Assembly (NCBI GenBank): GCA_027451885.1
Contig: DAIDHX010000165.1
Span: 1 to 64,000, forward strand
Length of the DNA: 64,000 nt
Source: Planctomycetales bacterium
GTDB taxonomy: Bacteria; Planctomycetota; Planctomycetia; Isosphaerales; Isosphaeraceae
Direction of reading: 5' to 3'
Shown here: in pieces, positions 33,493-52,297 of the stretch
Position numbering within the stretch: the stretch's first letter is position 1
Layout: every line of letters begins with the position of its first letter
Made by a program: the position numbers and the translations under genes
Notes under the pieces: model-generated
What the model was told of the DNA's origin: nothing
Databases searched by the model: none
Seen by the model: only the letters and a program-made list of their open reading frames with translations

Positions 33493-33818
33493 GATGGTCT
33501 AGCTCTTCTCCTTGGTTTCCCCATCTTTACCTGGAGGCGCTTAAAAAGACGTCTTTTCGGGTTTTGGACTTGTTACGCAGAGGCATGGGCGATGGGTTTC
33601 GCGATGCGATCCGAAAATGTTTCCAGATTAAGCCCAGTAAAAACGCCTTATAAGACGATTAAGTTGGCATAAGAGGGATGCCGTTGTATGTTATCCCTTT
33701 TTTGGCGACCTGCCCCGAGTCGCAGCGGGGCAGGTCGTCTCTTGTGGCACGAACTCATGGAATCATTCGCAAATCGGGCTCTGGGATTGTTCCTGGGCCT
33801 GAGAAGAGGGCTGTTGGC

Positions 33819-34040
33819 ATGGCGTCCACGGCGACCGCGCGGCAGGATCGGGCGGGATTGGCCGGGCTTCGGCTTTACACCGGTGATGGTGATGATTCGC
33901 GCTCCGCGTACTGGAGGATCAGCGGGCACAGGACAGCGCTTTTGATCTGGACGCCGGAGGAGTGGGAAGCACTTGCCGAGCGGCCGGACGACGCCCAGTA
34001 CCATCCCTGCGGCGTCTGGTGTGCGCTGCGAGTTTTGTGA
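33819..34040 (+). CDS. Small conserved-type protein of unknown function
   Basis: 73 residues from ATG 33819, preceded by GAGGG at about ten bases; a longer frame to 33678 has no ribosome site and starts in a basic low-complexity stretch. The core reads LRLYTGDGDDSRSAYWRI, ALLIWTPEEWEAL, DAQYHPCGVWCALRV. The density of Trp and Tyr and two Cys suggests a folded small domain rather than a chance frame. I have the impression that such proteins recur in planctomycete genomes, but I cannot verify that here. Function unknown. Converges with the YdjY gene. Confidence 0.6.
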   Translation: MASTATARQDRAGLAGLRLYTGDGDDSRSAYWRISGHRTALLIWTPEEWEALAERPDDAQYHPCGVWCALRVL

Positions 34041-34072
34041 GGCCGTGGTGGTCATCTTGAGCGATGGGGGGA

Positions 34073-34789
34073 TCATGGCCTGGTTTTGGCCTGAGGCTGG
34101 GCCTTTGTGTCCTGGGGCTTGCGTGGCCCCAGCGTCAAGAAGACCTCGGTACCGAGCGGCGGAACGACCTTGGGGTTAGCGACGAAGACGCGTTCTGTGT
34201 CGTCCGCGGAGCTGGCGAATGGCAGGTCGAGAATCGCACTTCCGAAGTTTGCCACGGTGATCAAATCGCCGTCGTCGGCTGCATATTTGGTTGAGTTTGA
34301 GGCCTTGTCGAAGAAGAGTTGACTGCCCGCGAAGACCCAGTCGGTCCGCAGCGGTGTTTTCTTGTTGTCGTCAAGGACGAAGTCGCGGGCGTCGATTGTG
34401 TGTTCCTTGCCCTTTTCGCGCCAGTATGCCGTGATGGCCGTGGCGTCTCCGGCAGGGGGAGTGAGCCGGGGCGTGAAGGTTACTGGGTGGCCGGGCTTGA
34501 GACCCGTGAGCAGCAATCCGGCGTGAATTTGGCGAGGCACGGCGTCCGTGGACAGGACGGCTTCGTGTTCCTTGGTTCCCTTGAGGCACACCAGGTGTTC
34601 GAGCGGGCCTTCGCGGAGTACAACCTTGGCCTTCACGATAAGTGTCCTGGCTTCTGGGTCGAACCACAGGCTTCGACCTAGCTTCTTCCAGCCTTCCTTG
34701 GGCTCAAGCGTTTCGGGAGGATTTCCCGGCTGGAAGCATGCCGTGGTGAGGCTCAAAAGAATCGCCGCAAAAAGAGGTGAGGGCGCCAT
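34073..34789 (-). CDS. YdjY-domain secreted protein
   Basis: 238 residues. N-terminal hydrophobic segment LFAAILLSLTTAC with a Cys that could be a lipid site, though the -3 position is Thr rather than Leu. The body contains the YdjY-type block KVVLREGPLEHLVCLKGTKEHEAVLST, followed by QIHAGLLLTGLKPGHPV and YWREKGKEHTIDARDFVLDD. YdjY domains are beta-rich and of unknown function, common in secreted planctomycete proteins. It is exported, probably to the periplasm. Neighbours give no functional hint. Confidence 0.8.
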   Translation of the reverse strand: MAPSPLFAAILLSLTTACFQPGNPPETLEPKEGWKKLGRSLWFDPEARTLIVKAKVVLREGPLEHLVCLKGTKEHEAVLSTDAVPRQIHAGLLLTGLKPGHPVTFTPRLTPPAGDATAITAYWREKGKEHTIDARDFVLDDNKKTPLRTDWVFAGSQLFFDKASNSTKYAADDGDLITVANFGSAILDLPFASSADDTERVFVANPKVVPPLGTEVFLTLGPRKPQDTKAQPQAKTRP

Positions 34790-35010: not shown

Positions 35011-38000
35011 TCAGAGGGCGACGGACGGCGGGATGCCGAGCTTCTCTTCCTCTTCTTCAAGGATCACGATCCGCGGGGTCACCATGAGCATCAGGCTGGT
35101 GGTGGTCCGGCCGATGCCGACGTTCTTGAAGAGACGATCGATGAGCGGCGTCTTGGACAGGATCGGGACGCCGTACTCGATGCGCTGTTCGTTGAGCGTC
35201 TTGACTCCGCCCAGGAGCACGGTGCCGCCGTCGGGCACGGTCACGGTGGTCCGGACGGTATTGGTGGTGGTGTTGGGAAGCTGGAGGGTGGCGTTGATCG
35301 CCGCCGCACCGCCGCCGAAGCCCGTGCCGCCGACGGCCGCCGGGATCTGGATGGTCGTGAACCCGTTCAGAGCATTGAAGAACGGGGACATCGAGAGTCG
35401 CACGTACCTGCGGTCAGCCGACACAACCGGGGTGACGGTGAGCGTCACGCCGATCGGAATCGATCCCACCGAGGGAATGAAGGCCACGGCGGACACGCCC
35501 ACGATCGGGAACAGCGACTGAACATAGTACTGAACGTTGTTGCTGAAGATCGTCGCAAGAGCACCGTTCATGCTCGTGACCTTCGGGGCTTGGAGCACGT
35601 TCGACCGCGTGTCGCCCTGGGCGGCCGTGAGGAAGAGATAGACTTCCAGGTCGCTCAGGAACGCGATGCCGAAGGTGGCACCCGCACCCGGGGTGGCATT
35701 GGAAGGAGCGATCAGCGTGCCGCTCGTGTTCGTGAACGGAATCTGCAAGCCCGGCGTGACGTTACCGATACCGCCGCCTTGCGTACCGACGATGAGCGGA
35801 GCGTTGCTGGGGTAGACATAGTCTCGGTTCGGGTTGAACAGGTAGACAGGTTGGGCGATTGCACTGCCGGCGGTCGCACCGCCACCTGCACTTGCCCCAC
35901 CGCCCGCGCTGAGACCGCCGCCGCCCGCGCTGATACCGCCGCCGCCCGCGCTGACGCCACCGCCGCCCGCGCTGACACCGCCGCCACCTGCGGTGACACC
36001 ACCCGCCGTGGCACCGGCCGTCGCCGTGGTCGTGGTCGTGGAGCTCGAGACCGGGAACAGTGAGGTCAACGGATTGGGAATGGCAACCGTCGAGTGCTTG
36101 CCGACCACGCGCGAGTTGATCGCCCAGTCGAAGTCGACGCTGATCTGTTCGAAGAAGCTGTCGCTGACCGTGATGAACCGCACTTCGATCGAGACCTGCA
36201 GGTCCATGAGCCGGCGAAGCTGCCGGAGCAGGTCGCGGACCTGGTCGTGAACCTCGGCCGTATGGCGGATGATCAGGCTGATCGACAGCATGAAGGGGGT
36301 GATGGCGCCTGGGGGCCGGGTCTGGTCGATGCCAGCATCCGCACCGCCGCCGCCGAAGCCGCCGCCCATGCCGTAGCTCGCCGTCACGTCCTGGCCGTTG
36401 GCGTCATTGATCCGCCAGGTGCCAGGCGCGATCGACGATGTGATGAGCTGGACGAGTGGAGTCATGTCCATGTTCGGGCGATCGCTGGGGGCTGCGCCCA
36501 GGCCGGTCAGCTCCGAAACCTTGTTGTTGCTCCGCGGATCGCCCGGGTTGAACCCGACGCCGGGAGGCGTGTTGGGATCCTTGGGCGTCTCGCCCGTCTG
36601 CTCCATGATGTTATGGGGCATGAAGTTGTTCGCCGCACGGCTGGGCGGCATGAGCAGGTCGCCGACGTAATAGGTCTCGAAGTAGGTCTGATCCTGGCTC
36701 GCGGTCGGGCTCGTGATCAGCACCACCTCGTCCTCGACCTTGTAAGTCAGGCCGAGCGGGCGAAGCATGTACTTAAGCGCGGCCTTGAGCGACACCTGGT
36801 TGACCACCAGGCTCACCGGCGAGGCGGAGGTCAGCCCCTCCTCGGAGAGCGCCTTGGGATCGAGCACAATGTTGAGGCCGGTGTAGTTCTGCAGGAACGT
36901 GATGGCCTCGGACAGCGGCTGCTTGTCCATGTTCATCGAGACGCGCTCCTTGAGCTTGGCCTCGATGGCGAGGACCCTGGGGTCCTTGCGGGGGGCGAGC
37001 CGCGCGTTCATGGCCAGACGCTCACGCGTCAGGTCCTTGAAGCTCTTGGGGAACTTGATGTCCCGGAGCTGCACCTCGGGATCGGCGATCGAAGCCTTGT
37101 CGACGTTCTGGAGCATCGTGACGACGGCTTCATCCTTCTCCCGGGTGTTTTCTTTGTCCTGCTTGAACCGGCGTTCCGCGCGGGCCTTCCAGACGAGCAT
37201 CGACGCGGCGAGCTCGTTGGGATCGACTTCCATGGCGCGGCGGGCGTAGGCCTCGCACTCGACGTAGTTGCCCTGGGCGTAGGCCTCGGTGGCCTTGTCC
37301 ATGAGCTGCTTCATCTTGGCTTTCTTGGCCTTGTCGGCCTCGAGAATCCGCAGGCGCTTCATCTCGATTTCGGCCCGCTGCTTCTTGTCTTGCATCTTGA
37401 CTTCGAACTCAGCCTTATCCTTTTTGGCGAGTTCGAGAGCGACTTCGAGCCGGCGCACCATGGGGCGGGTGAGTTCGGCGGGAAGTTCCGCCGCCTGCAC
37501 CTGCTGGGTGGTCTTCTTGTAGAGCTCGATTGCCTTGTCGGGATCGATCTCCTGGAGTCTGCGACCCTCGGCGATCTTGGCGCCGACCTCGGCGTTGAGC
37601 TTCTGGGCGGCGAGCGCTTCTGAGTCGTCGGCGGTCGCCTGGCCGGGCTTGTTCTTGTCGTCGGACAGCTTCGCCTGGAGCTCGCTGACCTTGGCACGCA
37701 GGCTGGCGTCGAGCCCGTCGCCCGCGGCAGCGACCTCGATCAGCAGGGCCTTTGCCCGGGCGGGATCGCCATTGCGGAGCGCGGCCATGGCCGCCTCATA
37801 GATCGCCAGGGCGCCTCCCTGCTGGGCAAGCGCGATCTGGGCCTGGAGCTCGTCGGCCTTGTCGTCCAGGCCGAACTTGCCCGCCTTGACCTGCTGGACC
37901 AGCTCCTTGGCGGCGGCGTAGTTACCGCTCTTGTAGAGCTCATGCGCCTCGGCCATGAGCTGATCGCCGCGCCCGGCAGGGGCCGATCCGGCGGCGGAAG

Positions 38001-39285
38001 CAGGCTTCGGATTCTGATCCACCGGCGGTGCAAGATCGAGCGCGGGCGCGTTGTCGCTGCCCGAAATCTTCACCACGGCAGGGTCCGTCTCGGCCTTCTC
38101 GGCCGCCGCGAACTTCGCCTGTGCACCCTTCAGATCCTCGCTGGCAAGAAGCGCATCGCCTTCGTGCTCAAGCGCGTTTTCCTTCGCCGGAGCCGGCTTG
38201 CCCGCCCTCGCCATCGCAATGTCGTGGAGCACGCTCTCCGCACGATCTGAAGACAGCGGAGGCACCACGTTCATACGCTCGGCCTGACGCGCCTTCTGCT
38301 CGGCCAGATCCAGCTTGCCTTGCGACATAAGCTGGCGCGACTCATGCACGAGCGCGTCGTAGACACCCTGGCTAGGCATGTCCTTGGGGGCAATCTCACG
38401 CACCTTGTCTCGACGGCGAAGCGCACGAGCCGCCGCCGCGACCTTGTCCGGAGAGTCCTCGAACAGCCCGTACGTGAGTCCCCAGCCTTTCACGTCAAGC
38501 GCAATCGCTTCGGCCTGCTCGAACTGCTTGGTGTCGAGCAACTGACGCGCTTCCTTGAGCTTCGTCTTGGCCGTCTTCCGGTCGTGCGGCGTGCCCACCG
38601 GCTCGGCGGCCGCTGGCCTGGCCGTCTTGGGCCGGGCCTTCTTGATCTCCTCCATCACCTTGGTGGGGGTGTCCTCGAACAGACCCCACTTGACGTCGAG
38701 ACTCTCGGCCTCCTTGACCTTGCGCTCGGCCGCGTCGTAGTCGCCCAGATGGATCTGCTCGACTGCTTCCTTGAGCAGCCAGCGTGCCTTCTGCTTGAGC
38801 TCGACGTCGGTCGCCGTGGTCTGGGGTCCGCGCGGGTCGCCGGAGCCAGTCGCGGCAGCCGGGCTGGCCTCGGGCATCCGCGACGGCGTCTGGTCGATGG
38901 CCGAGGCGGTCGACGGGGCGGAAGACACCGGCACAGAGGATCGGGCCGGGGTTGCCGCGGGTGCGGTCGACTGAGCCACAACGGCCTTCGCCTTCACCAG
39001 CTCCTTCATGTAAGCGTCCAGCGTCGATTGTTCGTCGGCCTGGAGTAAGTCGCGGTACATGTTCGCAGCTTCAAGGTACTTTGAAGCCTTGGCGAGATCA
39101 TCACTGGTCCGCGCGCTGTTAAACAGCCGCGCTCCCGCCTCCAGGTATTTGATTGGCGGCGCGGGGGGCTGTGGCCGGTTTGCCGTGGTGCCCGCCGCGG
39201 CCGCGTCGTCGGGTGCCCCGCGTACCGCGGCGCTCCCCCACGCGCTCAACATCAGGATGAGACTGACCGTCTTAAGCCTTCCCAA
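35011..39285 (-). CDS. Giant secretin (PilQ/GspD type) with TPR-like N-terminus
   Basis: 1424 residues from TTG 39285, chosen because AAAGGAGG lies five bases upstream; an ATG at 39318 lies before that site and is less likely. Signal peptide RLKTVSLILMLSAWGSAAVRG. Residues about 50-750 are helical: several copies of an amphipathic unit, two with YGLFEDSP or WGLFEDTP motifs near residues 198 and 275, then lysine-rich coiled coil. An N0/STN-like domain (MNMDKQPLSEAITFLQNYTG) lies at about 775-860. The secretin domain starts about residue 1020 (VSIEVRFITVSDSFFEQI) and ends LMLMVTPRIVI. A run of about six SAGGGG-type repeats interrupts it near 1092-1138. Typical secretins are 400-750 residues, so this one is roughly double. 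It forms an outer-membrane pore. Confidence 0.92.
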   Translation of the reverse strand: MGRLKTVSLILMLSAWGSAAVRGAPDDAAAAGTTANRPQPPAPPIKYLEAGARLFNSARTSDDLAKASKYLEAANMYRDLLQADEQSTLDAYMKELVKAKAVVAQSTAPAATPARSSVPVSSAPSTASAIDQTPSRMPEASPAAATGSGDPRGPQTTATDVELKQKARWLLKEAVEQIHLGDYDAAERKVKEAESLDVKWGLFEDTPTKVMEEIKKARPKTARPAAAEPVGTPHDRKTAKTKLKEARQLLDTKQFEQAEAIALDVKGWGLTYGLFEDSPDKVAAAARALRRRDKVREIAPKDMPSQGVYDALVHESRQLMSQGKLDLAEQKARQAERMNVVPPLSSDRAESVLHDIAMARAGKPAPAKENALEHEGDALLASEDLKGAQAKFAAAEKAETDPAVVKISGSDNAPALDLAPPVDQNPKPASAAGSAPAGRGDQLMAEAHELYKSGNYAAAKELVQQVKAGKFGLDDKADELQAQIALAQQGGALAIYEAAMAALRNGDPARAKALLIEVAAAGDGLDASLRAKVSELQAKLSDDKNKPGQATADDSEALAAQKLNAEVGAKIAEGRRLQEIDPDKAIELYKKTTQQVQAAELPAELTRPMVRRLEVALELAKKDKAEFEVKMQDKKQRAEIEMKRLRILEADKAKKAKMKQLMDKATEAYAQGNYVECEAYARRAMEVDPNELAASMLVWKARAERRFKQDKENTREKDEAVVTMLQNVDKASIADPEVQLRDIKFPKSFKDLTRERLAMNARLAPRKDPRVLAIEAKLKERVSMNMDKQPLSEAITFLQNYTGLNIVLDPKALSEEGLTSASPVSLVVNQVSLKAALKYMLRPLGLTYKVEDEVVLITSPTASQDQTYFETYYVGDLLMPPSRAANNFMPHNIMEQTGETPKDPNTPPGVGFNPGDPRSNNKVSELTGLGAAPSDRPNMDMTPLVQLITSSIAPGTWRINDANGQDVTASYGMGGGFGGGGADAGIDQTRPPGAITPFMLSISLIIRHTAEVHDQVRDLLRQLRRLMDLQVSIEVRFITVSDSFFEQISVDFDWAINSRVVGKHSTVAIPNPLTSLFPVSSSTTTTTATAGATAGGVTAGGGGVSAGGGGVSAGGGGISAGGGGLSAGGGASAGGGATAGSAIAQPVYLFNPNRDYVYPSNAPLIVGTQGGGIGNVTPGLQIPFTNTSGTLIAPSNATPGAGATFGIAFLSDLEVYLFLTAAQGDTRSNVLQAPKVTSMNGALATIFSNNVQYYVQSLFPIVGVSAVAFIPSVGSIPIGVTLTVTPVVSADRRYVRLSMSPFFNALNGFTTIQIPAAVGGTGFGGGAAAINATLQLPNTTTNTVRTTVTVPDGGTVLLGGVKTLNEQRIEYGVPILSKTPLIDRLFKNVGIGRTTTSLMLMVTPRIVILEEEEEKLGIPPSVAL
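35899..36000 (-). repeat. 21-bp tandem repeat encoding SAGGGG units
   Basis: About five units of period 21 bases; copies begin at 35907, 35928, 35949 and 35970, with a partial copy at 35991. Each encodes a seven-residue unit of the SAGGGG type with a variable first residue. The units differ at a few third positions, so they have drifted slightly. Confidence 0.85.
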
Positions 39286-39972
39286 CGCGACCTCCTTTCG
39301 CCGCTCGCTCCAGACCACCGTCGACGTCCCTGGCGACGGTCCTTTTCTTGTCCTTCACGAGTGGGAGACGAATTGCCTTCGCGGTTGCACGAGCCGCTCC
39401 GAATGGAACGCGACCCCTTCACCCTAATCACTTCAAAACGGCGAGTTCCGGCTGTGAGTACGTGGGGACCCGCCTTGCGCGAGGGGAAGATATGCCGGTC
39501 TTTATCCGCCAGCCTCTCCGCGGTCAAGGCGAGTTCCAGGCCCCCTGGCAACCGCTCTAAACGGATCGACCCGACCGACCGGCATACTTTACCCACGCGT
39601 CGTTACGACTAATTTCGGCAGCTTCCATGAGAATCCTTACAGCAGGACCAATTTCTCCGCGGAATCCTTGAATTCGCGCAGGTTCGCCTCATCCGCACAA
39701 TCGGTTCTGGTCCTCCAAAAACCAGTCAAAGAAAACTGCCTGGTGAGCCGCCAGAACACCCTCTCTTAGTCAAAAGTCAAATCAGAAAAAGGACTTGTGG
39801 CTAAGCTCAGATAGGCCGGAACGATCCAGGTAAAACTGGCTTCCCGGGCGCGAACAAAAAAGAACGCGATCGAGTGCATGATTGAGTCATGCCCTCGATC
39901 GCGTTACAAGAAGCCGGGTAATTCAGGAACAGTCGGTTCAAGCGAGGCTGATGAGGTGGTCGGGCCCGCGGC
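39286..39972. other. Long intergenic region between pilus operon terminator and secretin
   Basis: 687 bases with no supported gene. Left part: secretin leader with the AAAGGAGG ribosome site. A short inverted repeat (ACCGTCG and CGACGGT, about 39316-39340) is followed on the plus strand by a T-rich stretch. Right part: the terminator at 39854-39905, listed separately. The secretin therefore appears to have its own promoter in this stretch, but I cannot point to convincing -35/-10 boxes. Confidence 0.55.
39854..39905 (-). terminator. Intrinsic terminator after the PilM-PilO-like operon
   Basis: On the minus strand, a nearly perfect 19-bp stem with one mismatch: the outer 12 bp are AACGCGATCGAG (39863-39874) against CTCGATCGCGTT (39894-39905), and an inner 6 bp GCATGA pairs with TCATGC around a five-base loop. 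It is followed by CTTTTTTG. It lies 67 bases after the stop at 39973. This separates the inner-membrane gene cluster from the secretin gene transcriptionally. Confidence 0.9.
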
Positions 39973-41916
39973 TTATCGTCCGCCGCTCTGACTGCCCATT
40001 CCTCCGCCCATCATCATCTGCATCATGCCCATCATGCCGGTTCCGGTCGAGCTTTTGCGTTCCTTGTCGGAGAGCTTGAGCTCGTGCTGGTAGTTGGATT
40101 CGATGTCCTTGCGGACCTCGTTCATCATGTCCTCCGGCTCGCCGTGGATCACGACAGAGCCATCGTCACGCAGGACGAGAGCGAGCACCGGTCGTTCGAA
40201 AGCCGGGCCGACAAGCCCAGATGGCAGTGCCTGCAGTCCACCACCTGAGATGTCAAGGACGATCTGGCGACTATTGAAGTCGATGGTCTTGCTCTTCTCG
40301 CCTGACCCATCGGAGACGGGAATCTTGGCTGTTCGCGGCTCGCCGATGATCTCACCGGGCGCTGCCTCAAACATCTTGGGAACCGTGACGCCATCGCTCG
40401 GGTTGAAGCGGACGACCTGGAATCGCGCCTTGATGTCGCTCTTGGGCGAGGGGGGCATCGAGCCCATGGCGTAAGGCATGATGTCCGGGGGCATTGACAC
40501 GGGATCGGTGGCCGCGCTCCAGGGGCCATAGAGATCCTCCGCCTTGTTATCGACGCCATAGTCGATGTCTTCACGCCCCTTGTTGGGATTGAAGACAACG
40601 ATGCGCAGGCGATAGCGATAGATGGTGTCGGGCTCGACGGTGAAGTCGAGGGCACGCACCTGGACGAGCTTTTCCTCGGACTTCCAGAAGTCCCCCACGG
40701 ATTCCGAGCTGCCCATGCCGCCCATCATGCTGCCCATCCCGGGCATCATTCCGCCCTTCATGCCGCCGCCCCGGCCGCCCATCATCCCCGCGCCTCCCAT
40801 CATGCCGGCGGGAGCAGTATCCTCGGGAAGTTCCTTCTTCTCCTTGGGCACGAACTTGGCAATGTGAACCTTCTCCCACAACCCTGCCTTGAGCAACGGG
40901 AGCGGATCATTCAGGTATTTCGGACGGAACGTCTCAGGAACGAGTTCCTCGTCTTCCTCCGGGAAGTTGTCGAGAACCAGATAGTTCTTGTCCTGGTCCA
41001 CGTTCTCCCAGTCAGACCAGCGGCCCGAGTCGTCGAGGGACTGCCGCTGGAGGTCGAGACGGCGGTAATTGGGATGGGCGATTGCGGGATTCTTGAGCGC
41101 CTCGCGGTAATTCGCCAGCATCTTACCGTGATCCAGCACCCCGGTAATGGCCACCCAGCGGTAGCCCTTGGTGATTTCCTTGCCGCCTTCATCGACGTCG
41201 TCAGCCTCGGAGGCCTTGGGTTGGGCTTCCTTGGTTGAGGTATCCGCACCGGCCAATTTGGCCCTCAGCTCACGCTCCTGGCGAGCACGTTCTTCCTTGG
41301 CCTCGCGGTCAATATCGGCCTGGCTCTTGCGGGACTTCTTCTTCGCTGCACCGCCCATCATGCCGCCCATGCCGCCCATGCCGCCCATCATGCCGCCGCC
41401 GCCGCTGTTCGAACGCCGTTTCTTACGCTTGCGCTTGGGCTTGGCTTCGACTTTCTCTGGCGGTGCGGGAACTCGATTGCCGTCTTTATCGAGCTCGTAA
41501 ACGTACAGGCCGCCCCGGCCGGGATAGGCGAAGAGCTCGGTTACGGCGATCAGGGCAGGCGTGCCGCGGATCAAGCCCGCGCCCGGCTCGGGTACAACCC
41601 ATTCCCGAACGGACTTGTAGTTGTCCGCCACGAGTGCGTTCTTGATCTGATTGTCGACGACTTTTGAGAACTCTGTGTCCTTGATGCCCTTCTTCTCAAG
41701 GACTTCGATGATGTGGGGACGGTCCTCGTGGCGCGAGAGATTGGTGTCGGATTGCTGGGCCGCACTCTTGATCTGCTCCGGCGTCGTGTCGATCGTCTTC
41801 ACTGTGGCGGCCCAGGAGACGCAAAGCAGGAAGACCGCGGACGCCGCCGCGACCCCGGCTTTCTCGCCGTGTCGCAGGCCCAGGTTCTTCATCTGGTCGA
41901 CAAACGCATTCGCCAT
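39973..41916 (-). CDS. Single-pass membrane protein of the pilus/secretion cluster with Met/Gly-rich inserts
   Basis: 647 residues from ATG 41916, preceded by GAGGAG. One membrane segment near 22-42 (GVAAASAVFLLCVSWAATV) after a short cytoplasmic stretch, then a large periplasmic part. Three Met/Gly-rich low-complexity regions: about 169-192 (GGGMMGGMGGMGGMMGG), 369-405 (GMMGGAGMMGGRGG) and the C-terminus 625-647 (GMMGMMQMMMGGGMG). Between them are beta-type blocks: GYRWVAITGVLDHGKML, and YRYRLRIVVFNPNKGRE with its surrounding fibronectin-like region. I do not recognise a named family. Its place between the PilO-like gene and the secretin suggests a PilP-like or replacement role linking inner-membrane complex to pore, by position only. 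Confidence 0.82.
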   Translation of the reverse strand: MANAFVDQMKNLGLRHGEKAGVAAASAVFLLCVSWAATVKTIDTTPEQIKSAAQQSDTNLSRHEDRPHIIEVLEKKGIKDTEFSKVVDNQIKNALVADNYKSVREWVVPEPGAGLIRGTPALIAVTELFAYPGRGGLYVYELDKDGNRVPAPPEKVEAKPKRKRKKRRSNSGGGGMMGGMGGMGGMMGGAAKKKSRKSQADIDREAKEERARQERELRAKLAGADTSTKEAQPKASEADDVDEGGKEITKGYRWVAITGVLDHGKMLANYREALKNPAIAHPNYRRLDLQRQSLDDSGRWSDWENVDQDKNYLVLDNFPEEDEELVPETFRPKYLNDPLPLLKAGLWEKVHIAKFVPKEKKELPEDTAPAGMMGGAGMMGGRGGGMKGGMMPGMGSMMGGMGSSESVGDFWKSEEKLVQVRALDFTVEPDTIYRYRLRIVVFNPNKGREDIDYGVDNKAEDLYGPWSAATDPVSMPPDIMPYAMGSMPPSPKSDIKARFQVVRFNPSDGVTVPKMFEAAPGEIIGEPRTAKIPVSDGSGEKSKTIDFNSRQIVLDISGGGLQALPSGLVGPAFERPVLALVLRDDGSVVIHGEPEDMMNEVRKDIESNYQHELKLSDKERKSSTGTGMMGMMQMMMGGGMGSQSGGR

Positions 41917-42088
41917 TGCGGCTGCTCCTCGAAAGAGTCGTCCCCGACCCACACCTTCTGAGTTTTGCGACCTGAGTACCGCTCTGGTACCCCAGTTTCA
42001 ATCGTGAATTCGAAACACCTCGGAGGGCCGAATCTCGAACGGCCCAGATTACCTCGGCGCGTGCCGTCAAGCGCCAGGGTAGGGTGCT

Positions 42089-43915
42089 TTATGGCTTCGG
42101 TGTATCCTTCTTTGTATTTGCATCGGCCTTGGGCGTGGGTGCGGCCTCCTTCGCCGCCGGTGCCGAAGCCTTGGCGGCCGGAGCGTCCTTCGCGGCGGGG
42201 ACGTCATTGGCGGCGGGTGCGGCCTCCTTCGCCGCCGGTGCCGGAGCCTTGGCGGCCGGAGTGTCCTTGGCAGCCGGAGTGTCCTTGGCAGCCGGAGCCG
42301 CTTCGATGGTCGCCGGTGTGGCCGCACCGTTCTTCGTGGCGTCGTTCTTGGCGGCGTCCTCGGGAGCAGCACCCATGCTCGTTTCCGTGGGCTCCACGAC
42401 CGGAGGCGGTTCGAAAAGTCTGGCCTGACCGTAGACGGTAACCTCGACGATATCGAAGTGCGGATCGAAGAAGGATGGACCGGACGACTTGGCTGCCGCC
42501 TTCTCGGCTTCCGAACGCTCCTTTGCCCGATCGACACTGCGGACGTCGGTTCCCTTACGCTCACTTGCGGCTGTACCACCGCCCACGCCGCCTCGACCAC
42601 CACGACCGCCCATCATCGACATCTGCTGGGCCATCATCTGGCTCTGGTTCTGCATGGCACCCATCATCCCGCCGAAGCCGCTCATCCCTCCTCGGCCGCC
42701 GCGCGTCATCTGCATTTGGGCCATCATGCTACCCATGGCGCCGCCCATCATGCCCATGGATCCCATCTGGCCGTAACCAGCGAACTGTCCCGACCCTTTC
42801 TCGGGCTTGGTCACCCGCGAGGAGGGACGCTGCATCTCAAACTCGATGACCTGGATGAACATCGGCGAGTTTTCCAGTTCGACCAGGAAGTCCTGGATGC
42901 GATCCTGATCAAGCTGCACCGTGATCATCACAGGCATGATGCGGAACTGCTTGTTCTCGCCCGCGACGTAGTAGATGGTTTCGGAACCGGCCGAGGATGC
43001 GCCAGCGCCTGCTCCCATGGCGCCCGGTCCCATGGCGCCCATGCCGCCACGGCGGCCGCCCATCATGCTCATCATGTTGCTGGCCATGGAGCCCGCGTTT
43101 CCCGCGTCTCCCGCGCCCCCTTCGGCCGAATCATCAGCCGGCGCATTGGGATCTTTGATTTTGGCGGCTTCTTCGAGCTTGTCGCCCTTGGCGATCGATT
43201 GTTGATCTTGCGCCACGGGGTCGCCCACCTGGAGCAAGCTGATTTGCTTCACGATCGCGCCGTCCCAGTCCTTGGCGGCCTTGTTCACCTGGGCGATCAC
43301 TTCGAGCAGCGTGCGCTGAATCCAGAGCCGCTCCTGCGCCGCCCAGATCACGGACAGGTCAGGCGTCTTTTCAATATTGAAAACGACCGGTCGCAGCAGG
43401 GCTTCCTTGGGGGGCGCCGCCACGATGCCTTCACCCGTCTCGTAGTTGAAGGGGTTGAAAGTCTTGTAAACCATATCGACGTAGGCGGGATAGGCCTCGA
43501 TGTAGTCGACCTTGGCGATTTCAACCTGGCCGGCGTTGACACCTTCGGGCCACTTCCGGCCCCACTTGGGAATCCGGTTCTGGACCGCCTCCGGCCATGT
43601 GAGCAGGGGGGCCTGGCGATCGAAGAGCGATTTCCAGGCACCGTTCACGTCGCGGGTGACGACCTGGGTCTTTTCCTCGACGATTGGTTTGTAGTCCGAC
43701 GTCGGGATGTCCTGGCTGGTGTATTGCTTGACATCCTTCTCGGCCGCCACGATCGCGCTGCGTTCCTTCTCCGTCTCTTCGCGCACGGGCTTCGAGCCCA
43801 GGATGTAGGCAACGATCGCGAAAAGGGCCGCGAGGCTCACGGAAATCCAGAAGCGGTACTTGATGACCTGCCTCAGAACCTCCTTGACCTGTTCCATCGT
43901 TTCTTGCTGACCCAT
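42089..43915 (-). CDS. PilO-like single-pass membrane protein with Met/Gly-rich inserts
   Basis: 608 residues from ATG 43915; an upstream GTG at 43933 is less likely because GAAGGTG sits just before the ATG. Topology matches PilO/GspM: short N-terminus, membrane segment at about 23-40 (FWISVSLAALFAIVAYIL), a helix, then a periplasmic domain. The segment FRIMPVMITVQLDQDRIQDFL followed by ENSPMFIQVIEFEMQ resembles the ferredoxin-like core of PilO. Met/Gly-rich inserts at about 275-302 and 378-441 (MMGGAMGSMMAQMQM, QSQMMAQQMSMMGG). The C-terminus (about 532-602) is a PAAKD/PAAKE Ala-Pro-Lys repeat. It should pair with the PilN-like part of the upstream gene product. Confidence 0.82.
   Translation of the reverse strand: MGQQETMEQVKEVLRQVIKYRFWISVSLAALFAIVAYILGSKPVREETEKERSAIVAAEKDVKQYTSQDIPTSDYKPIVEEKTQVVTRDVNGAWKSLFDRQAPLLTWPEAVQNRIPKWGRKWPEGVNAGQVEIAKVDYIEAYPAYVDMVYKTFNPFNYETGEGIVAAPPKEALLRPVVFNIEKTPDLSVIWAAQERLWIQRTLLEVIAQVNKAAKDWDGAIVKQISLLQVGDPVAQDQQSIAKGDKLEEAAKIKDPNAPADDSAEGGAGDAGNAGSMASNMMSMMGGRRGGMGAMGPGAMGAGAGASSAGSETIYYVAGENKQFRIMPVMITVQLDQDRIQDFLVELENSPMFIQVIEFEMQRPSSRVTKPEKGSGQFAGYGQMGSMGMMGGAMGSMMAQMQMTRGGRGGMSGFGGMMGAMQNQSQMMAQQMSMMGGRGGRGGVGGGTAASERKGTDVRSVDRAKERSEAEKAAAKSSGPSFFDPHFDIVEVTVYGQARLFEPPPVVEPTETSMGAAPEDAAKNDATKNGAATPATIEAAPAAKDTPAAKDTPAAKAPAPAAKEAAPAANDVPAAKDAPAAKASAPAAKEAAPTPKADANTKKDTPKP
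42137..42297 (-). repeat. Nested direct repeats encoding the Ala-Pro-Lys tail
   Basis: A block at 42137-42187 recurs at 42215-42265 (period 78 bases, two mismatches noted). Within it, an exact 18-base unit is tandemly duplicated at 42255-42290 with a third partial copy to 42297. All periods are multiples of three, so the frame is kept. Confidence 0.85.
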
Positions 43916-43981
43916 GGTCGTTGGCACCTTCACACGGGGTGGGATTTCGATCGATTGCTCGTGCTGACTTGGTTGTTCTGG

Positions 43982-44008
43982 AGTCGCTCGACTTCGGATC
44001 GAGCGACT
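43982..44008. other. Intercistronic hairpin
   Basis: Perfect 10-bp inverted repeat AGTCGCTCGA and TCGAGCGACT with a seven-base loop, between the PilM-PilN gene stop (44052) and the PilO-like start (43915). No T-run follows on the minus strand, so it is more likely an mRNA stability or processing element than a terminator. Confidence 0.6.
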
Positions 44009-44051
44009 GCGTCTTGCAAGGGGCCTTGGCCGCGTGGCCGGAATCGCTCAA

Positions 44052-46505
44052 TCAGTTTGAGGGTGCTGGTGGAGCGCCCTTGGCCGCGGGGGCCGGCGCC
44101 GCCTGGCCTGGTGGAGTGGCGAACCCAGGCGCCTGAGCGCCGGGAGTCGCGGCAGCACCACTTGCGCCCTTGGTGAGCTCGGAGTTGATCTCCTCGGACT
44201 TCTTGAGCGAGGCCGCCTCGATCGCTTCCTGGTCCGGAATCTTCACGGCTGAGTTGTTCTTCTCCGCTTCGAGCATCGCCGTGGCGATTTCCTTGATTTT
44301 TTGAGCCCGTTCCTCGGGGGTCTTCGGTCGGTCTTCCGGTTTCACGGGGACCCAGAGGAACTGGATCAGGAAGTCGGTGCGGGTCAGTGTTTTCAGATTC
44401 TTCTTGGCGTCGGCGTCGCTCATCTTATTCACACCATAGCCGCCCCCCATCCGCTCCATCATCGCCTGCATCGATGCGTTGCCCGAGCCGCCCATCATGC
44501 CCGCGCCCTTCATACCACCCATTGGGCCGCCCATGCCGCCGCCCATCTTGGCCATCATGGCCCCCATCGAGCCGGCCATCGCGCTCCCTGCGCCGCCGGC
44601 TTCGCCCCCTTCCTCGGCCTTGGGCGTGGCTCGTCCCAGCAGGGCGACTGTCACCGCCGAATTGTTGTTGGTGGCCTGACCCTTCTCGCTTGTCCACTCC
44701 TTGTCGTGTGTCATCCAGGCGAGGGCGACGTGCGAGACGCCGAAGAGACGCAACGAAGGATCGTTGAGCTTGCTCAGCACCTTGCGTGTGATGAACTCAT
44801 ACGGCCCGAACTCGATGCGACGCTTGTCGGTCGCGTCCAGCTTGCGCTGTTCCTTGGAGGGGTAAGGATTGTAGTGGTGGCAAATGAGCTGAATCACCCA
44901 GCCCTCACCTGACGGCTCCTTGGCGACATCGTACGGATGCATCAGGTTCTTGAACGTGAGCGGGAGACTATCAAACCACTCGGCCTTCACGTCGGTGCGC
45001 CAGACGGGCTTGATCGCGTCGATGTGGACGCGCAGCTTTTCGAGCTCGTCCTGCACACTGGGATCGTCCGGGTTCAGGTTGTATTCCTTGGCCGGATCGG
45101 GGAAGTAGTTGCTGATCGTGCCCAGGAACTGGGGCCAAAGCGCCCGATTGGTCGGGTCGATTACCAGAGCCGTACCTTCGTTGTAGATGGACTGCCAGTC
45201 GCCCTTGGCCTTTTCGAAGCCTGACTTGAGATCCGCGCCTTTCTTGCTGACCGATTTTGCCTGGGTTACGGCGGTTTTGAAGGCGTGTGTGGTCACGGCG
45301 GCGAGCGCCCGATAATCGCCCAGCGAGAACAGGATCGACAGCCCGAGCATGATGAGGGCCGAGGCGGCGAGCGCCCACGGCTTCTTGGCACGAATAAGGC
45401 GCACGCGCTCGATTTCGGGGGGGAGCAAGTTGGTCGACAGGCCGCCGCGGGCTAGCCCCTGCACGCCCAGGCCGTAGGCCACCGCGAACGACGCCAGGTT
45501 GTCCTGGAACTGGGGCGCGCCTTTGACCTCGTCACCCGCCATCCGCGGGAAGTCTTCAAGACGCACGACCTCGTGACTCAGATTCTGCTGCAGGAACTTC
45601 TGCAACCCCGGCAGCTTGAAGCCATTGCCCATGCCCACGATCTTGCGGATCTTGGCCTGGCGGTTGATGCTCGAGTAAAAACCGATCGAGCGGTTGATCT
45701 CGCTAGCGAAGTCATTGAAGATGCCGCGCATCGCCGTGAAGATCGCCCGCGGATCCGGCGCCTTGGTGGCGTTTCGTTTCAGATGCTCGGCCTTGGCAAA
45801 GGTGAGCTTCAGCTCTTTGGTGAGCGCCCGGGTGAAATGATTGCCGCCGATCGGCACGTTGCGCTGCCAGATTCGCGTGCCGTCGGTGATGATGAGATCG
45901 GTATTGTCTGCTCCAATGTCGAGGAGCACGACCGAGTCCTTGTTGTCGCTTCCCTTGAGCTGATCGAACGTGATGAAGTTATAAAGAGCGATCGGGCTCA
46001 TCTGCACAACGTCGACCTCGATGCCCGCCACGGCGAGCGGCAGGATCGCGCGATTGATCTGATCGCGCTTCATGGCGAACAGGCCAACCTCGGCCATCGT
46101 GAACTCCTCCTCGTTCACTTCCTCGTCGCCGCCAATCTGCTGGTAGGACCAGACGACCTCCTCAGGCGCGAACGGAATCTGCTGCTTGGCCTCGAACTTC
46201 ACAATGTCGGGGATACGCTTCTTCTCGACCGGCGGCAGCTTGATGAACTTCACCAGACCCGACTGGCCCGGCACCGCGATTGCAACCTTGCAGCCCTTCA
46301 CGTCATTGCGGTCGGTGAAGGTGGCGAGCGCTTCGCGAACCAGCTCGTCCGCGTCGGCGTCCGGCTGGCTGAGGATCTTGGGATACTCGATGAAATCGAA
46401 CGCTTCGGCGACGACCTGATCGGGAGCCTCACCCGGGACGAGCTTGAGTGCCTTGAGCGCTGCCTGACCTACGTCAATCGCCCAGACGGCCTGAATCTTC
46501 GCCAT
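44052..46505 (-). CDS. pilM: PilM-PilN fusion, pilus/secretion assembly protein
   Basis: 817 residues from ATG 46505, preceded by AGGAG nine bases upstream (a GTG at 46511 is too close to it). Residues 1-365 are actin-like PilM: phosphate-1 loop WAIDVGQAALKALKL, phosphate-2 LLDIGADNTDLII, adenosine loop GMGNGFKLPG, and KFEAKQQIPFAPEEVVW. A membrane segment at about 375-395 (WALAASALIMLGLSILFSL) follows LLPPEIE, a PilN-like N-terminal signature, so PilM and PilN, normally separate, are joined. The periplasmic part continues to 817 with a Met/Gly-rich insert at about 635-690 (MGGGMGGPMGGMKGAGMMGG). PilM-PilN would seat the PilO-like protein and couple the cytoplasmic motor to the outer-membrane secretin. 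First gene of the cluster. Confidence 0.93.
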   Translation of the reverse strand: MAKIQAVWAIDVGQAALKALKLVPGEAPDQVVAEAFDFIEYPKILSQPDADADELVREALATFTDRNDVKGCKVAIAVPGQSGLVKFIKLPPVEKKRIPDIVKFEAKQQIPFAPEEVVWSYQQIGGDEEVNEEEFTMAEVGLFAMKRDQINRAILPLAVAGIEVDVVQMSPIALYNFITFDQLKGSDNKDSVVLLDIGADNTDLIITDGTRIWQRNVPIGGNHFTRALTKELKLTFAKAEHLKRNATKAPDPRAIFTAMRGIFNDFASEINRSIGFYSSINRQAKIRKIVGMGNGFKLPGLQKFLQQNLSHEVVRLEDFPRMAGDEVKGAPQFQDNLASFAVAYGLGVQGLARGGLSTNLLPPEIERVRLIRAKKPWALAASALIMLGLSILFSLGDYRALAAVTTHAFKTAVTQAKSVSKKGADLKSGFEKAKGDWQSIYNEGTALVIDPTNRALWPQFLGTISNYFPDPAKEYNLNPDDPSVQDELEKLRVHIDAIKPVWRTDVKAEWFDSLPLTFKNLMHPYDVAKEPSGEGWVIQLICHHYNPYPSKEQRKLDATDKRRIEFGPYEFITRKVLSKLNDPSLRLFGVSHVALAWMTHDKEWTSEKGQATNNNSAVTVALLGRATPKAEEGGEAGGAGSAMAGSMGAMMAKMGGGMGGPMGGMKGAGMMGGSGNASMQAMMERMGGGYGVNKMSDADAKKNLKTLTRTDFLIQFLWVPVKPEDRPKTPEERAQKIKEIATAMLEAEKNNSAVKIPDQEAIEAASLKKSEEINSELTKGASGAAATPGAQAPGFATPPGQAAPAPAAKGAPPAPSN

Positions 46506-46898
46506 GCCCACGCACTCCTAGGGGAGAATGCCCGAGCCGCGCCCGCGAATCACGAGCAACGCCCCGCGCCTGTCGATCTTGATGATGAGCAATACCAAAC
46601 CGGCTCAGAAGGAACCGGCAATCTGCAGAACTCGCCGCCAGTAACTGAATTGTATCAAAACCCAACAACGAGGAAGAGACTCTCGCTCCGATCCATGCGT
46701 GCGGGGAAGCGAGCAGTCCCGTCGCAAGTTGTCTCTTCCGCACTTCCTTCGACGCCCAGCGGCCTGGAAAAGTTCCCGGCCTCGTCTCTGAAGTTTTGTG
46801 GAAGAACCGATACGGGTGCCCGCGCGATCGTCACGCACGACGAACTTTATCACATGCGGGGCTCAACCGGTAAAGAACCTGCGCATGAAAGCCAGGGG
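46506..46898. other. Leader/promoter region of the pilM cluster
   Basis: 393 bases without a supported gene, between the GH13 gene stop and the pilM-type start. It holds the AGGAG ribosome site and a candidate extended -10 listed separately. Frames in it lack family resemblance. Confidence 0.5.
46649..46657 (-). promoter_or_regulatory. Candidate extended -10 promoter of the pilM cluster
   Basis: On the minus strand the sequence TGATACAAT fits an extended -10 (TGn followed by TACAAT). It lies about 145 bases upstream of ATG 46505. No good -35 box is seen at 17 bases, as is common with extended -10 promoters. Sequence match only. Confidence 0.3.
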
Positions 46899-48698
46899 TT
46901 AGCCGTCATCCTGGGAAAGGATGAGCGCTGCGTAAGGGGGAATGGAGAGGGTGGCGGATGCGGTGAGTCCATCGTAATCGTCGGGGCTGGCGTGGATTGG
47001 GGGGTCGCGAGGGCTGTCGAATTCCCGGCTGTAGCCGCGCCAGTCGCTGTTGAAGCGAATCACCCATACGCCTTCCTGGGGTAATCCGAGACGGTATTCG
47101 ATCCGGGGCTGGTGGGAGAAGTTTGCCACCACGACCACGTCGTCGCCTGGTCCGCCTTTCTCGAACCGGCGAAATGCAAGCACCTTGTCGCTTTCATTGA
47201 GGTGGTGGATGTGGATGAACTGGCCGCGGAGGCCGCGGGTCGTCCCTGCGAGGTCGAGGCGGAGAGCGATCAGGTCGCGGTAAAGGCGAATGAGGCCGCG
47301 GAATTCCTCGCTTGAGTCCCAGTCGAGGGGAACGTCATCGCGGAACCACTCTCCTTCGAGAAATTCCTGTCCCTGGAAAATCATGGGGATGCCGGGCGCG
47401 GTGAAGACGAGAGCGGCGGCGAGGGTGGAGCGCTTCTGGGCATGCCAGCCCTTGGAGTCGTCCTTGTTGATCTCGTGGGGGACGCGTGCCTTGCCGTTGG
47501 CGACCTCGTCGTGCGACTCGCTGTAGATCACGCGGGTGAAGGCCTTATCGTGGTCACGGACGGCGAGTGCGTCGGCGATTGCGCCCATGGAGCGGGACTC
47601 ATCCGCGGGGGCAGTCACCGCGGCTCGGATGGGATGAACGAAGCGGGCATCCCACTGGCTGCCAAACCCTGCACCGCCTGCGCTGAGCTCCTGGGTGATC
47701 CAGAGGTGGTTCTGGAGATCCTCGGCGATCGTCAGTTTGCCGGGATGGCGCTCGGAGATGGTGCGATTGAGTTCGACGAGCAAGCTGCAGCCTTCCGCCA
47801 GGTCATGGTCGCCGGGGCCATGAACGCTGCGGATGTAGACGGTGGCGTCAAGCCGCAGTCCGTCGATGTGAAATTCTTCGAGCCAGTACAGGGCGTTATC
47901 GAGGAGAAAGCGTCTCACCTCCGCGCGGCCGTAGTCTGGGCGAGTGGCACCCCAGGGGGTTTCCGCTTTCCAGTCGTTGTAGAAATAGATTCCGCCGCCA
48001 GCATTTTCGCTCCAGCCGTCGAACCGCCAGAGATCGAGATCGCTTGGTCCGAGATGGTTGTACACGACGTCGAGGATCACGGCGATGCCGTGGCGGTGGC
48101 AGGCGCGAACGAACGATTTAAACGCCTTGGGGCCGCCATAAGCCGACTCGACCGCGAAGATATGGGCTGGGTTGTAGCCCCAGGAGCGGTCGCCAGCGAA
48201 CTCGGCCACGGGCATGATTTCGACGGCGTTCACACCGAGCGACCGCAGGTGCCCGAGCTGGCGGACGGCCGATTTGAAGCCGGCTGGCCGTTCGTCGTCG
48301 CCGTTGGATTCGCCGAAGGTTCCCACGTGCAGCTCGTAGATCACGAGCCGGTTCCAGGTTTCGATTCGGAATGCGTCGCCTTCCCAGTCGAAGGCCGGGT
48401 TGACGACCACGCCGTTACCAACGGAGCTCGTCACCTCGCGTGCGTAGGGGTCGATGCGGGAGAGTGGACCTTGAGGCGTTTGCAACAGGAAGCGGTACTC
48501 CGCGCCCGCCTGGCAGCCGGGTACAAACGCGTGCCAGACACCGTTTTCCTGGCGTTCCATGGGGTGCGTATGGTCGTTCCAGTCATTGAAGCTGCCCACA
48601 ACGGCCGCGCTTGTGGCATTGGGAGCCCAAACGCGGAATTCCGTGCCTGACTCCGTCAGCCCTGCGCCGAGCGGTCGCGCGGCGGATCCTTCGCTCAT
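46899..48698 (-). CDS. GH13 alpha-glucan-active enzyme with CBM48 (branching enzyme/trehalohydrolase-like)
   Basis: 599 residues; AGAGGA precedes ATG 48698. N-terminal CBM48/E-set domain at about 10-80 (TEFRVWAPNATSAAVVGSFNDW). The barrel starts near 115: VIYELHVGTFG, region I DVVYNH, region II DGLRLDAT (nucleophile Asp), region III TIAEDLQ (acid/base Glu), region IV SESHDEV. C-terminal beta domain follows. The front half resembles malto-oligosyltrehalose trehalohydrolase (TreZ); the SHDEVANGK and GQEFLEGEWF blocks are closer to branching enzymes, so I do not name it further. No signal peptide, hence cytoplasmic. Glycogen or trehalose metabolism is the likely context. Confidence 0.85.
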   Translation of the reverse strand: MSEGSAARPLGAGLTESGTEFRVWAPNATSAAVVGSFNDWNDHTHPMERQENGVWHAFVPGCQAGAEYRFLLQTPQGPLSRIDPYAREVTSSVGNGVVVNPAFDWEGDAFRIETWNRLVIYELHVGTFGESNGDDERPAGFKSAVRQLGHLRSLGVNAVEIMPVAEFAGDRSWGYNPAHIFAVESAYGGPKAFKSFVRACHRHGIAVILDVVYNHLGPSDLDLWRFDGWSENAGGGIYFYNDWKAETPWGATRPDYGRAEVRRFLLDNALYWLEEFHIDGLRLDATVYIRSVHGPGDHDLAEGCSLLVELNRTISERHPGKLTIAEDLQNHLWITQELSAGGAGFGSQWDARFVHPIRAAVTAPADESRSMGAIADALAVRDHDKAFTRVIYSESHDEVANGKARVPHEINKDDSKGWHAQKRSTLAAALVFTAPGIPMIFQGQEFLEGEWFRDDVPLDWDSSEEFRGLIRLYRDLIALRLDLAGTTRGLRGQFIHIHHLNESDKVLAFRRFEKGGPGDDVVVVANFSHQPRIEYRLGLPQEGVWVIRFNSDWRGYSREFDSPRDPPIHASPDDYDGLTASATLSIPPYAALILSQDDG

Positions 48699-48901: not shown

Positions 48902-51900
48902 CTAGCGCTCGATGCGGCTTGCGCTTGGCCGTGCTGTCGATCGGGCTGTGGTGGCGCGCGGAGGATTGGCCTCGGGCGTCCGCGGGGCTCGATCATCCGC
49001 CTCGGCAACGTCCGGGTCGCCGGCCCGAGGCGCTTCCTCGATCACCTCGACTCGGAAATCGTCGAACATCACCTCGCCGTAGCCGGCGAGACCCAGCATG
49101 ACTGTGTAGTCCCCATCGGCGGGCGCCTTGCGAAAGAGCATGACGCGGGACCAGCCAGGAATCGGCGCGCTCGTACGATACTGGAGCAGCTCACCGCCGA
49201 TCGAGTCGCGAACCACAATACCCCCTAGCCCGGGCGCACTTTGGAATGGCCGTTTGACGAGCACCGAGATTCGGGCCAGGTTATTGGCTTCCAGGTGAAA
49301 GGGGGGTGATCGTACCGCCGCCACGGGGAAATCGAGATAGCCCGGCAGGAGCGTGTCGAGGTCCTCTTGCTTTTCCGCCGTGACATCAAGCTGCAGCACG
49401 CGAGCTCCTGGCTTGATCACCTCTTTTGGCCGTTTGGGATCGCGAGGGTAAGGCGGGAAGCTGACCTTGGTTTTGATGCCTTCCATCTGGTATCCCACAT
49501 TGAGCCAGCCATTTTGGGTGACGGCGCCAGGGTTGTCGAAGTCGCCTGTGGGAACGCGATTGGCGCCAAAGGCATATCCTGGGCGTCCGGCGATCCAGTC
49601 GGCCCAAAGGTAGGCGTCGGTGAGGGATTCGAACGAAATGAGTGGGGGGCAGGAGACCGCTGTCAGGAGCAAGGGAGGGTCGGGGAGCCGTTTGGGTTCG
49701 CCGGGCGCGGGCTTGGGACGTTTGGGGTAGAACTTATCGGCGGCCTTGGCAACGGCGAGATTGGCCTGCAACCAGTGCCCGTGCATGAGCACGCGGAGTG
49801 GTCGGCTGGCGCGCCTGGCTTCGGCCCATGCCCAGGCGAAATCTCCTTGTTCCCAGGCGTCGCGCGCGGATTTGATGTATTCCTCGGCCTTTGCCAGCAG
49901 ATCGTTGGCGTCGGTTGGGCGCGATTCGATCCCTACCCGCTGCCGCTCCTTGACATCGTCCTCGGAACGGATGTCGTGGCCGTCCGCCGCCAGCCGAGTG
50001 TGGATCTCGCGCACGGCCTTCAACTTGAGCTCGGCCTGTTCAATCGCGAGCGGCACTGCGCGGCTTTTCACCGCGTCCACCATGGCCCGCACCTGCTCAT
50101 AGAGTGCCATGTCCGTGGTGGCCAGGATGAGCGCTGTTCCGCCGAAGTCCTCGATCTTGAACCGTCTGCCCCCCACCTCGCGTAACGGCTCGAGCACCTT
50201 CACCTCGCCGGGCGTGATCTCGAACGCCTGCGCGCCTTCGGGCAGAACCGGTGTGACCATCACGTTCCGGGCAGCAAGCTGCGGCGGCTGCCACTGCGAG
50301 CCCTCGGCATAGTCGCCCACCAGGATCAGCTTCCCTTTGCGGTTCGGCAGCGGGATCGCGGCTGCGAGCATGCCAGGCTTGGGCGGCAGCTCCTTTACCT
50401 GCTTGGGGCGCGTGACCGTGGTCGATGGGTTTGTCGGCAGGATGGGCGGATCGGGATCGAACACGGGGAATTGCGTGATTTGCTCCTCATTTCTGGCGAG
50501 GATCGACTCGACCAGATCGATCTCCAGGTTGAGGAAGCTCATCTCGATCAGATTGATGCGGCCGGCCGGCCGGGTGAGATCGGCGTCGGCAAGATAGCCA
50601 ACGCCGCGGTACCCTGCGCTGAGGGCCAGGTAAGTTTGCATGCGGATCTGTTCGGGCAGGACCGAGGGTCCGCCGTGAGTCGGGCGGCTGTCGTCTCCCC
50701 AGATTGCTCGTGCGGCCGGCTCGGGCGCGGTTGCCTCGATCCAGGCAAAAAAGAGACTCGATAGGTTTGAACGGGCCGTCAACCACTTGCGCTGGGTGAG
50801 ATACTGCAAGATTTCAAGAGGTGATTGCGAACCGCCCCAGGCGGGCGCGGCGATGCCGATCAGATCGAGACCAACGGGCGCCCGGGCGAAGAGCGGCAGA
50901 TCCCCGTCGACCCCGGCCGAGGCCAATCGCGGTGTGTCCTCGCCTAGCTCGCGCAGGAGTCGAAGTGCCGAGAGGATTCGCTCGAGCTCGCGCGCTCGTG
51001 CTTCAAGCTTGCGATCCCGTCCCAGGCCCATCCCCAGGGTGCTGAAGGCAATCGCGTCGCGCATTGGGAGCGAGGCCAGCCGATCGATCTCTCGCGCTGG
51101 GTCGGAGCCTTCCCCGATCTCGAGCCCCAGAGCGATCAGGAACCCGCGGCTGACCGCGGCCTTGAGCCGCTCCGGATCGGTGCCATCGTCCCAGAGCATG
51201 TCGAACCCCGCACGCCTGAGCTCGCTCACATTCGCGCCCGGGGCGAGGATGGCCGTGGGAAACCACGGAACGTAGCTTCCCTTCTGGCCGATTCGTTCGA
51301 GCAGGTTTCGCTGCATTCGCACCCGCGGCGGATGGGTGCCATCGCGTTCGGCCACGGGTTCGGCTGTGGCAGGGGGGGTATGCGAAGCCGCGCCAGCCGC
51401 CGGGGCAGGACTGATCTCAAGATCATCCAGAAAGACTTCCGATGTACCCGGCCCTGCCAGCAGATTCACCACCACTTGCTCGACATAGGCTCCCTCGAGC
51501 GGGATCGGGCGCTTCGTGGACGCCCGGAGCACGCGCGCCTGGCGCTCGACCCCCGCTGGCAAAGACTGCAACTCGAGCGGCTGCCAGCGCTCGGCTTCGG
51601 TGTAGATCGTCCCGGGTACCAGCACAAAGCTCGCTGCCTTGGTTTCGGGATCGATGTCCGCGGGTAAAACCACGCGCGCGAAGACTCTTACCCCGGCCTG
51701 GTTTCCCTTGACCCTCAGCCCGATGCGCAACTCCTTGGTCACAGGCAGGCGCGGGGTCTTGTAGCTCACGAAGAACTGGCCGCCGTTTTCGGCGTCGAAC
51801 ACGAATCGTTCCGAGCGCGCACCGCCGTGAGCGGCCTTGTTCGATCGGTCATGCGCGACCAGCGTGATTGTAGTGTCCAGATATTCCTTGCGCCAGCTTG

Positions 51901-52030: not shown

Positions 52031-52297
52031 TGCTCTCGACCTCCCTGCGGTTCGAACGGGCTGCCATGCCCGTGCGCGAATCCTAGACAAGGTCGCCCAA
52101 GTCGGGAAGATCACAACCGGGAAGTCCTGAGCGAATCGAGCGGTCTGAGGGGACTGGGCAAGTGGCGGAAAAGTCGAGAGAACGTGCAAGATCGCTCTAG
52201 GTCCACCATTTTGCCCAGGCGAAAGAGATTTGGTGACCGTCTTGTCTTACGTGTGCGTGATAGATTCTGAGTGCCGACACTGCTTTTGAGGTGCAAC

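Follow-up and report, generated by a model that had tools for sequence, protein, structure and literature searches.

The locus studied here raises two questions: which envelope machine is encoded by four neighbouring genes, and what do the Met/Gly-rich tracts in the first three of them contribute to it? The genes are co-directional ORFs on the minus strand, at positions 35011-46511 of the 64,000 nt stretch of DNA analysed (the window). The host is an Isosphaeraceae planctomycete with a genome of 6.2 Mb (98% complete), and its nearest named relatives are Isosphaeraceae as well (Paludisphaera, Aquisphaera, Singulisphaera, Tautonia). The genes encode, in this order, a PilM-PilN fusion (PilMN), a PilO-like protein, a single-pass membrane protein of 659 aa in the position of PilP or Amuc_1099 (termed the third protein below) and a giant secretin; the gene order and coordinates given in an earlier note on this DNA are both right. 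We consider it likely that the cluster represents two parts of a type IV pilus-like machine, its alignment subcomplex and its channel through the outer membrane, in a machine that is found across Planctomycetia, is collinear with a locus of Akkermansia and carries disordered spacer tracts.

PilMN (44052-46511, minus strand, 819 aa) consists of a cytoplasmic actin-like PilM part (residues 12-350), a transmembrane segment at about residues 376-400 and a periplasmic PilN-like part. The PilO-like or Amuc_1100-like protein (42089-43933, minus strand, 614 aa) comprises a transmembrane helix, a long helical stalk, a ferredoxin-like periplasmic domain and an Ala/Pro/Lys tail. The tail (42137-42318, minus strand) is coded by 78-bp tandem repeats and differs in length among relatives. 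In the third protein (39973-41952, minus strand) a transmembrane helix is followed by an alpha/beta domain (residues 138-306), an FN3-like domain (429-516) and a further beta domain (523-604). The secretin (35011-39318, minus strand, 1435 aa) has a signal peptide, a long helical/TPR-like N-terminal half, an STN-like domain (834-869) and the secretin domain itself (1233-1418). The true ATG starts of the first three genes probably lie a few codons inside the ORFs, at 46505, 43915 and 41916. Upstream of PilMN an alpha-amylase family enzyme with CBM48 is encoded (46899-48698, minus strand), followed by an ORF of 1095 aa (48902-52189, minus strand) without any Pfam match. The secretin is separated from an ABC transporter by two further ORFs lacking a Pfam match (142 and 238 aa; 33648-34789, minus strand).

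The two end genes can be assigned to families by sequence. PilM matches Pfam PF11104 (PilM_2; 9.4e-33) and exceeds the cut-off of TIGR01175 (3.3e-46, 157.9 bits versus 133). The best NCBIfam model of PilMN is NF045709 (Amuc_1101_fam, 1.9e-62), ahead of pilM TIGR01175, with a score of 211.9 below the equivalog cut-off of 650 bits. The secretin matches PF00263 (9.1e-26). Its best NCBIfam model is NF042912 (Amuc_1098_fam, 6.4e-27), with 93.9 versus an equivalog cut-off of 750 bits, followed by PilQ TIGR02515 (4e-24, below the PilQ cut-off). Both assignments of the earlier note are thereby borne out, while the case for PilN is indirect: the Pfam scan of 36 members gave no PilN match for this part, but a transmembrane segment is present and the profiles of the PilN part and of the PilO-like family can be aligned (hhalign 91%, E 1e-6), a relation that PilN and PilO should show. 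Mutual matches of the PilMN, PilO-like and third-protein HMMs were set aside as a sign of homology, being probably due to shared Met/Gly tracts. In Singulisphaera sp. GP187 (locus L088:10001-12504) PilMN is split at 413/420 aa into two ORFs, near the PilM/PilN junction; a second locus (L064) is split at the same place, by natural splitting or a frameshift. Diverged second proteins of PilM-PilN length (862 and 872 aa) occur in two genomes (G028 and G037) without PilO-like or third-protein partners.

Pfam scans of the PilO-like, third-protein and PilN families yielded nothing usable, and searching PDB sequences with the three profiles gave no useful match; only structure comparison worked. The AlphaFold2 model of the PilO-like protein (pLDDT 76.8) was compared with 350,542 PDB chains using Foldseek. 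Ranks 1-10 are all Amuc_1100 (6lad, 6laf, 6kny), the ten chains representing one protein, and the next three (ranks 11-13) belong to PilO of type IV pili (3jc8_Oa, 2rjz). E-values of the Amuc_1100 matches are modest (0.027-0.41), with a TM-score by target of up to 0.61. Moreover, weak Amuc_1100_fam sequence matches recur in three sets of relatives (best 8e-4; 12.9 versus a 180-bit cut-off). The predicted structure thus confirms an Amuc_1100/PilO fold, at fold level and with modest E-values, in agreement with the gene order and the Amuc_1100_fam matches. The PilO assignment of the earlier note holds at this level. Its placement of the genes in a pilus/secretion cluster is right as regards PilM, the secretin and the PilO fold; the closest relative, Akkermansia Amuc_1098-1101, had been missed.

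The third protein belongs to no Pfam family. Its model (pLDDT 79.3) shows the transmembrane helix, the alpha/beta domain and the FN3-like beta domains, and Foldseek returns generic Ig/FN3 folds only. Amuc_1099_fam is matched by 1 of 34 relatives (E 0.036) and by none in wider sets. This gene occupies the place of PilP, but neither Pfam nor Foldseek gave a PilP match, and a transmembrane helix is found where a PilP-type lipoprotein was looked for.

The trio of PilMN, PilO-like and third protein is widely conserved. PilMN was found in 39/40 relatives, and 81 non-redundant loci of the class Planctomycetia preserve the order of the three genes. The third-protein profile was run against 244 genomes of the phylum and found 92. 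Most of 15 loci taken from the phylum-wide search (14 of other classes, one of the class of the window) contain the three genes in order and no Met/Gly inserts; the PilO-like genes of other classes align with the Planctomycetia family (hhalign 99.7%). Hence the three-gene core predates the inserts. Of the four-gene order, the trio is kept across Planctomycetia and into other classes, whereas the secretin adjoins it in a subset of loci only.

Further pilus genes are located away from the cluster in the same genome. PF00437 was detected at six places and PilT-family genes twice, along with the PilC-like platform (PF00482) and two prepilin peptidases (PF01478). No pilin gene lies consistently beside the cluster, as judged by prepilin motifs near it across loci. 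The genome contains 72 DUF1559 (PF07596) matches, some of which are parts of a single gene; the family was matched in 0/14 control genomes. DUF1559 proteins that were read have pilin-like N-termini (FTLIELLVVIAIIAVLIALLLPAVQ) and are possible filament subunits.

Met/Gly tracts were defined by a 20-aa window with ≥60% M+G and at least four of each. Applied to all six frames of the 64 kb, this yields six tracts of 29-75 aa, all within the first three genes of the cluster and all on the minus strand. PilMN has one (44439-44597, residues 639-691). The PilO-like protein has two, at 43004-43096 (residues 280-310), within a model region of pLDDT <50 (271-314), and at 42575-42799 (residues 379-453), largely inside regions of equally low confidence (388-459). 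The third protein has three: 41326-41427 (residues 176-209; pLDDT <50 at 177-207), 40690-40824 (residues 377-421; pLDDT <50 at 385-418) and a C-terminal tail at 39976-40062 (residues 631-659). One to three inserts per protein is therefore correct, and the length of 20-65 residues given before is not. Since each tract is C-terminal to the single transmembrane segment, all six are periplasmic, as had been proposed. In the AlphaFold models of the PilO-like and third proteins the tracts match regions of very low confidence inside or beside periplasmic domains, and they are predicted to be disordered loops of these domains. The secretin contains no Met/Gly tract by the same criterion; instead it carries, as described earlier, a SAGGGG-type repeat (35900-36008, minus strand; a 21-bp DNA unit in 5.1 copies). 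At the DNA level the inserts themselves contain short tandem repeats (9-21 bp), suggesting that they grow by slippage.

The clustering of the tracts is not due to chance, because 0/3018 other ORFs (all frames, ≥100 aa) of 80 related loci carry one. In 40 more loci the sole other tract belongs to a PilMN that is split in two, in its C-terminal half. The strict pattern MGGMMG also matches three other, apparently exported, proteins of the same genome, so this habit is not private to the complex. In one exported protein about 70 residues form a tract of the MMGGMGGG type (contig C221, about 47500-47700); tracts were also seen in the tail of a TPR protein (contig C117) and in a DUF1559 pilin-like protein (contig C292).

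Within Isosphaeraceae, all three proteins carry Met/Gly tracts in 24/27 loci, and outside the family 28/54 loci have none. The same alignment sites are then Gly/Pro/Ala-rich or short, and in 6/54 non-Isosphaeraceae loci all three proteins are free of low-complexity tracts at the threshold used, so that a spacer is not essential. The idea that the inserts are always present thus gives way to near-universality in Isosphaeraceae, patchiness elsewhere and absence in the other classes read. On the PilM-domain tree the Met/Gly state changes at least about 19 times in the PilO-like and at least about 18 times in the third protein. Tracts recur and vanish repeatedly in evolution, with fixed positions, variable length and replaceable composition.

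Tracts of the PilO-like and third proteins co-vary. A naive Fisher test gives p 4.5e-5 and ignores kinship; among 14 independent pairs 7.3 change in the same and 0.8 in the opposite direction (median p 0.039). This test is marginal (p range 0.004-0.29) and not significant in the reverse direction (0.07). Base composition was ruled out as the cause (GC p 0.21 and 0.66). PilMN tracts go with higher GC (p 0.002), and base composition may contribute to them. As the partner tracts co-vary, absence is not random; random absence is what the earlier note had set against its own reading. Its suggestion of a function shared by the inserts survives in this respect, but not in the form of metal binding through Met: the inserts are not always present, so Met is dispensable and metal binding unlikely.

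In the mechanism that we favour, the cytoplasmic PilM, fused to PilN, would bind a cytoplasmic motor, by analogy with type IV pili and from family knowledge. The PilN part, the PilO-like and the third protein would assemble into a ring in the periplasm and bring the platform into line with the giant secretin. PilB/PilT-type ATPases, the PilC-like platform, prepilin peptidase and DUF1559 pilin-like proteins are encoded elsewhere in the genome. The Met/Gly loops, which probably arise by slippage of DNA repeats, would add flexible mass of variable length to the ring, as spacers or weakly cohesive bristles. Low complexity and flexibility, rather than Met itself, would be what is needed. Fixed position, variable length and replaceable composition speak for a spacer or bristle over a specific metal site. 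What fits the observations best is a set of flexible spacer loops that have grown by slippage and are under shared selection.

The inserts might, on the other hand, have no function, being slippage-prone low complexity that is tolerated in exposed loops and biased by lineage and codon habits. Short tandem repeats in the tracts, their patchy spread with many changes on the tree, similar tracts in other exported proteins of the genome and the six loci devoid of low complexity are all in line with such neutrality. It fits less well with the lack of tracts in the 3018 other ORFs of the same loci, their retention in all three proteins by 24 of the 27 Isosphaeraceae, and the co-variation on independent pairs that GC does not explain. 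We regard the neutral explanation as possible but somewhat doubtful; the co-varying partner tracts speak against pure neutrality, though only moderately.

That the cluster instead encodes a system like that of type II secretion (GspL/M/C/D), which would secrete enzymes and not build pili, we hold to be quite unlikely. Some PilO-like members match GspM weakly and the secretin matches GspD TIGR02517 with 81.6 bits. The Amuc_1098 and PilQ models outscore GspD, however, PilM lies above its cut-off with no GspL model appearing, the structural matches are Amuc_1100 and PilO, and two PilT-family genes are present in the genome. GspL, pseudopilins or other Gsp genes were not found among the neighbours scanned. 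Finally, a metal- or oxidation-controlled gasket of the periplasmic ring, in which Met side chains bind copper or silver or act as redox-sensitive cohesive patches, would suit the periplasmic location, the co-varying tracts and a Met content of 16-22% in several Isosphaeraceae insert regions, but is very unlikely given that M is replaced by G/P/A at the same sites in relatives, that the tracts are Gly-dominated with no regular MxxM metal motifs and that no metal genes were recognised among the scanned neighbours.

If the preferred pilus-like machine with spacer loops exists, it would build a fibre and may serve polymer uptake. Crateriform structures of Planctopirus bridge both membranes and bear 12-nm pili-like, dextran-binding fibres; the machinery is not named (PMC5394234). 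A bolder proposal, which we consider rather unlikely, is that the complex is the molecular core of these structures and a PVC-wide machine for polymer capture, which Akkermansia would share, and that the co-varying Met/Gly loops form a cohesive, tunable gasket in an enlarged periplasm. As a candidate for the machinery of planctomycete crateriform structures and of macromolecule capture, the cluster can be tested. Moreover, the locus of Amuc_1100, which has attracted study because of its effects on the host, would extend from Verrucomicrobia to the phylum Planctomycetota. By implication, Amuc_1100 would be an ancestral scaffold protein of the PilO type and not a pilus subunit specialised for the gut. 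As low-complexity loops that recur and co-vary in partner proteins, the tracts would be an unusual example from nature of disordered spacers within a pilus scaffold.

Among known systems, GroEL has C-terminal GGM tails. These and Met-rich low-complexity domains resemble the tracts in Met/Gly repeat composition and disorder; in contrast to the GroEL tails, the tracts are internal loops of periplasmic membrane proteins, and there is no homology. Type II secretion (GspL/GspM/GspC/GspD) has a related secretin and a weak GspM similarity of PilO-like members in common with the cluster, which differs by stronger PilM and Amuc matches and the presence of PilT. The canonical type IVa series PilM-PilN-PilO-PilP-PilQ shares PilM, the PilO-fold protein and the secretin in canonical order, and genes for ATPases, PilT, the PilC-like protein and prepilin peptidase likewise lie elsewhere in the planctomycete genome. 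Differences are the fusion of PilM to PilN, the 1435-aa secretin, the inserts and, in place of a recognisable PilP lipoprotein, the 659-aa single-pass protein with FN3-like domains.

Akkermansia muciniphila comes closest. The Amuc_1098-1102 proteins have been described as abundant envelope proteins (PMC5332112). For MUL2 (amuc_1099-1102), synteny is reported throughout Akkermansiaceae and frequent conservation in Verrucomicrobiales, with a proposed role in attachment and glycan use (PMC13174399); the parts read of these two papers contain no statement of the locus in planctomycetes. Sequence similarity is very low and the equivalog cut-offs of the NCBIfam Amuc models are not reached. The planctomycete proteins are much larger, with Met/Gly and other low-complexity inserts, and the upstream gene encodes the alpha-amylase family enzyme instead of an adjacent Amuc_1102 pilin. 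Because these cut-offs and the adjacent pilin are lacking, we do not claim membership in the Amuc family proper. Both loci nevertheless share the order PilM, Amuc_1100-like protein, third protein (by position only) and secretin, and the best NCBIfam models of the two end genes are Amuc_1101_fam and Amuc_1098_fam. Both have a long PilM-like protein (the Amuc_1101 family model spans 608 positions) and a secretin with an extended N-terminal half; Akkermansia PilQ has been reported with TPRs ahead of the secretin domain (PMC4960237). Going by published gene order and family models, the planctomycete cluster is a distant homologue of Amuc_1101-1100-1099-1098 and collinear with it.
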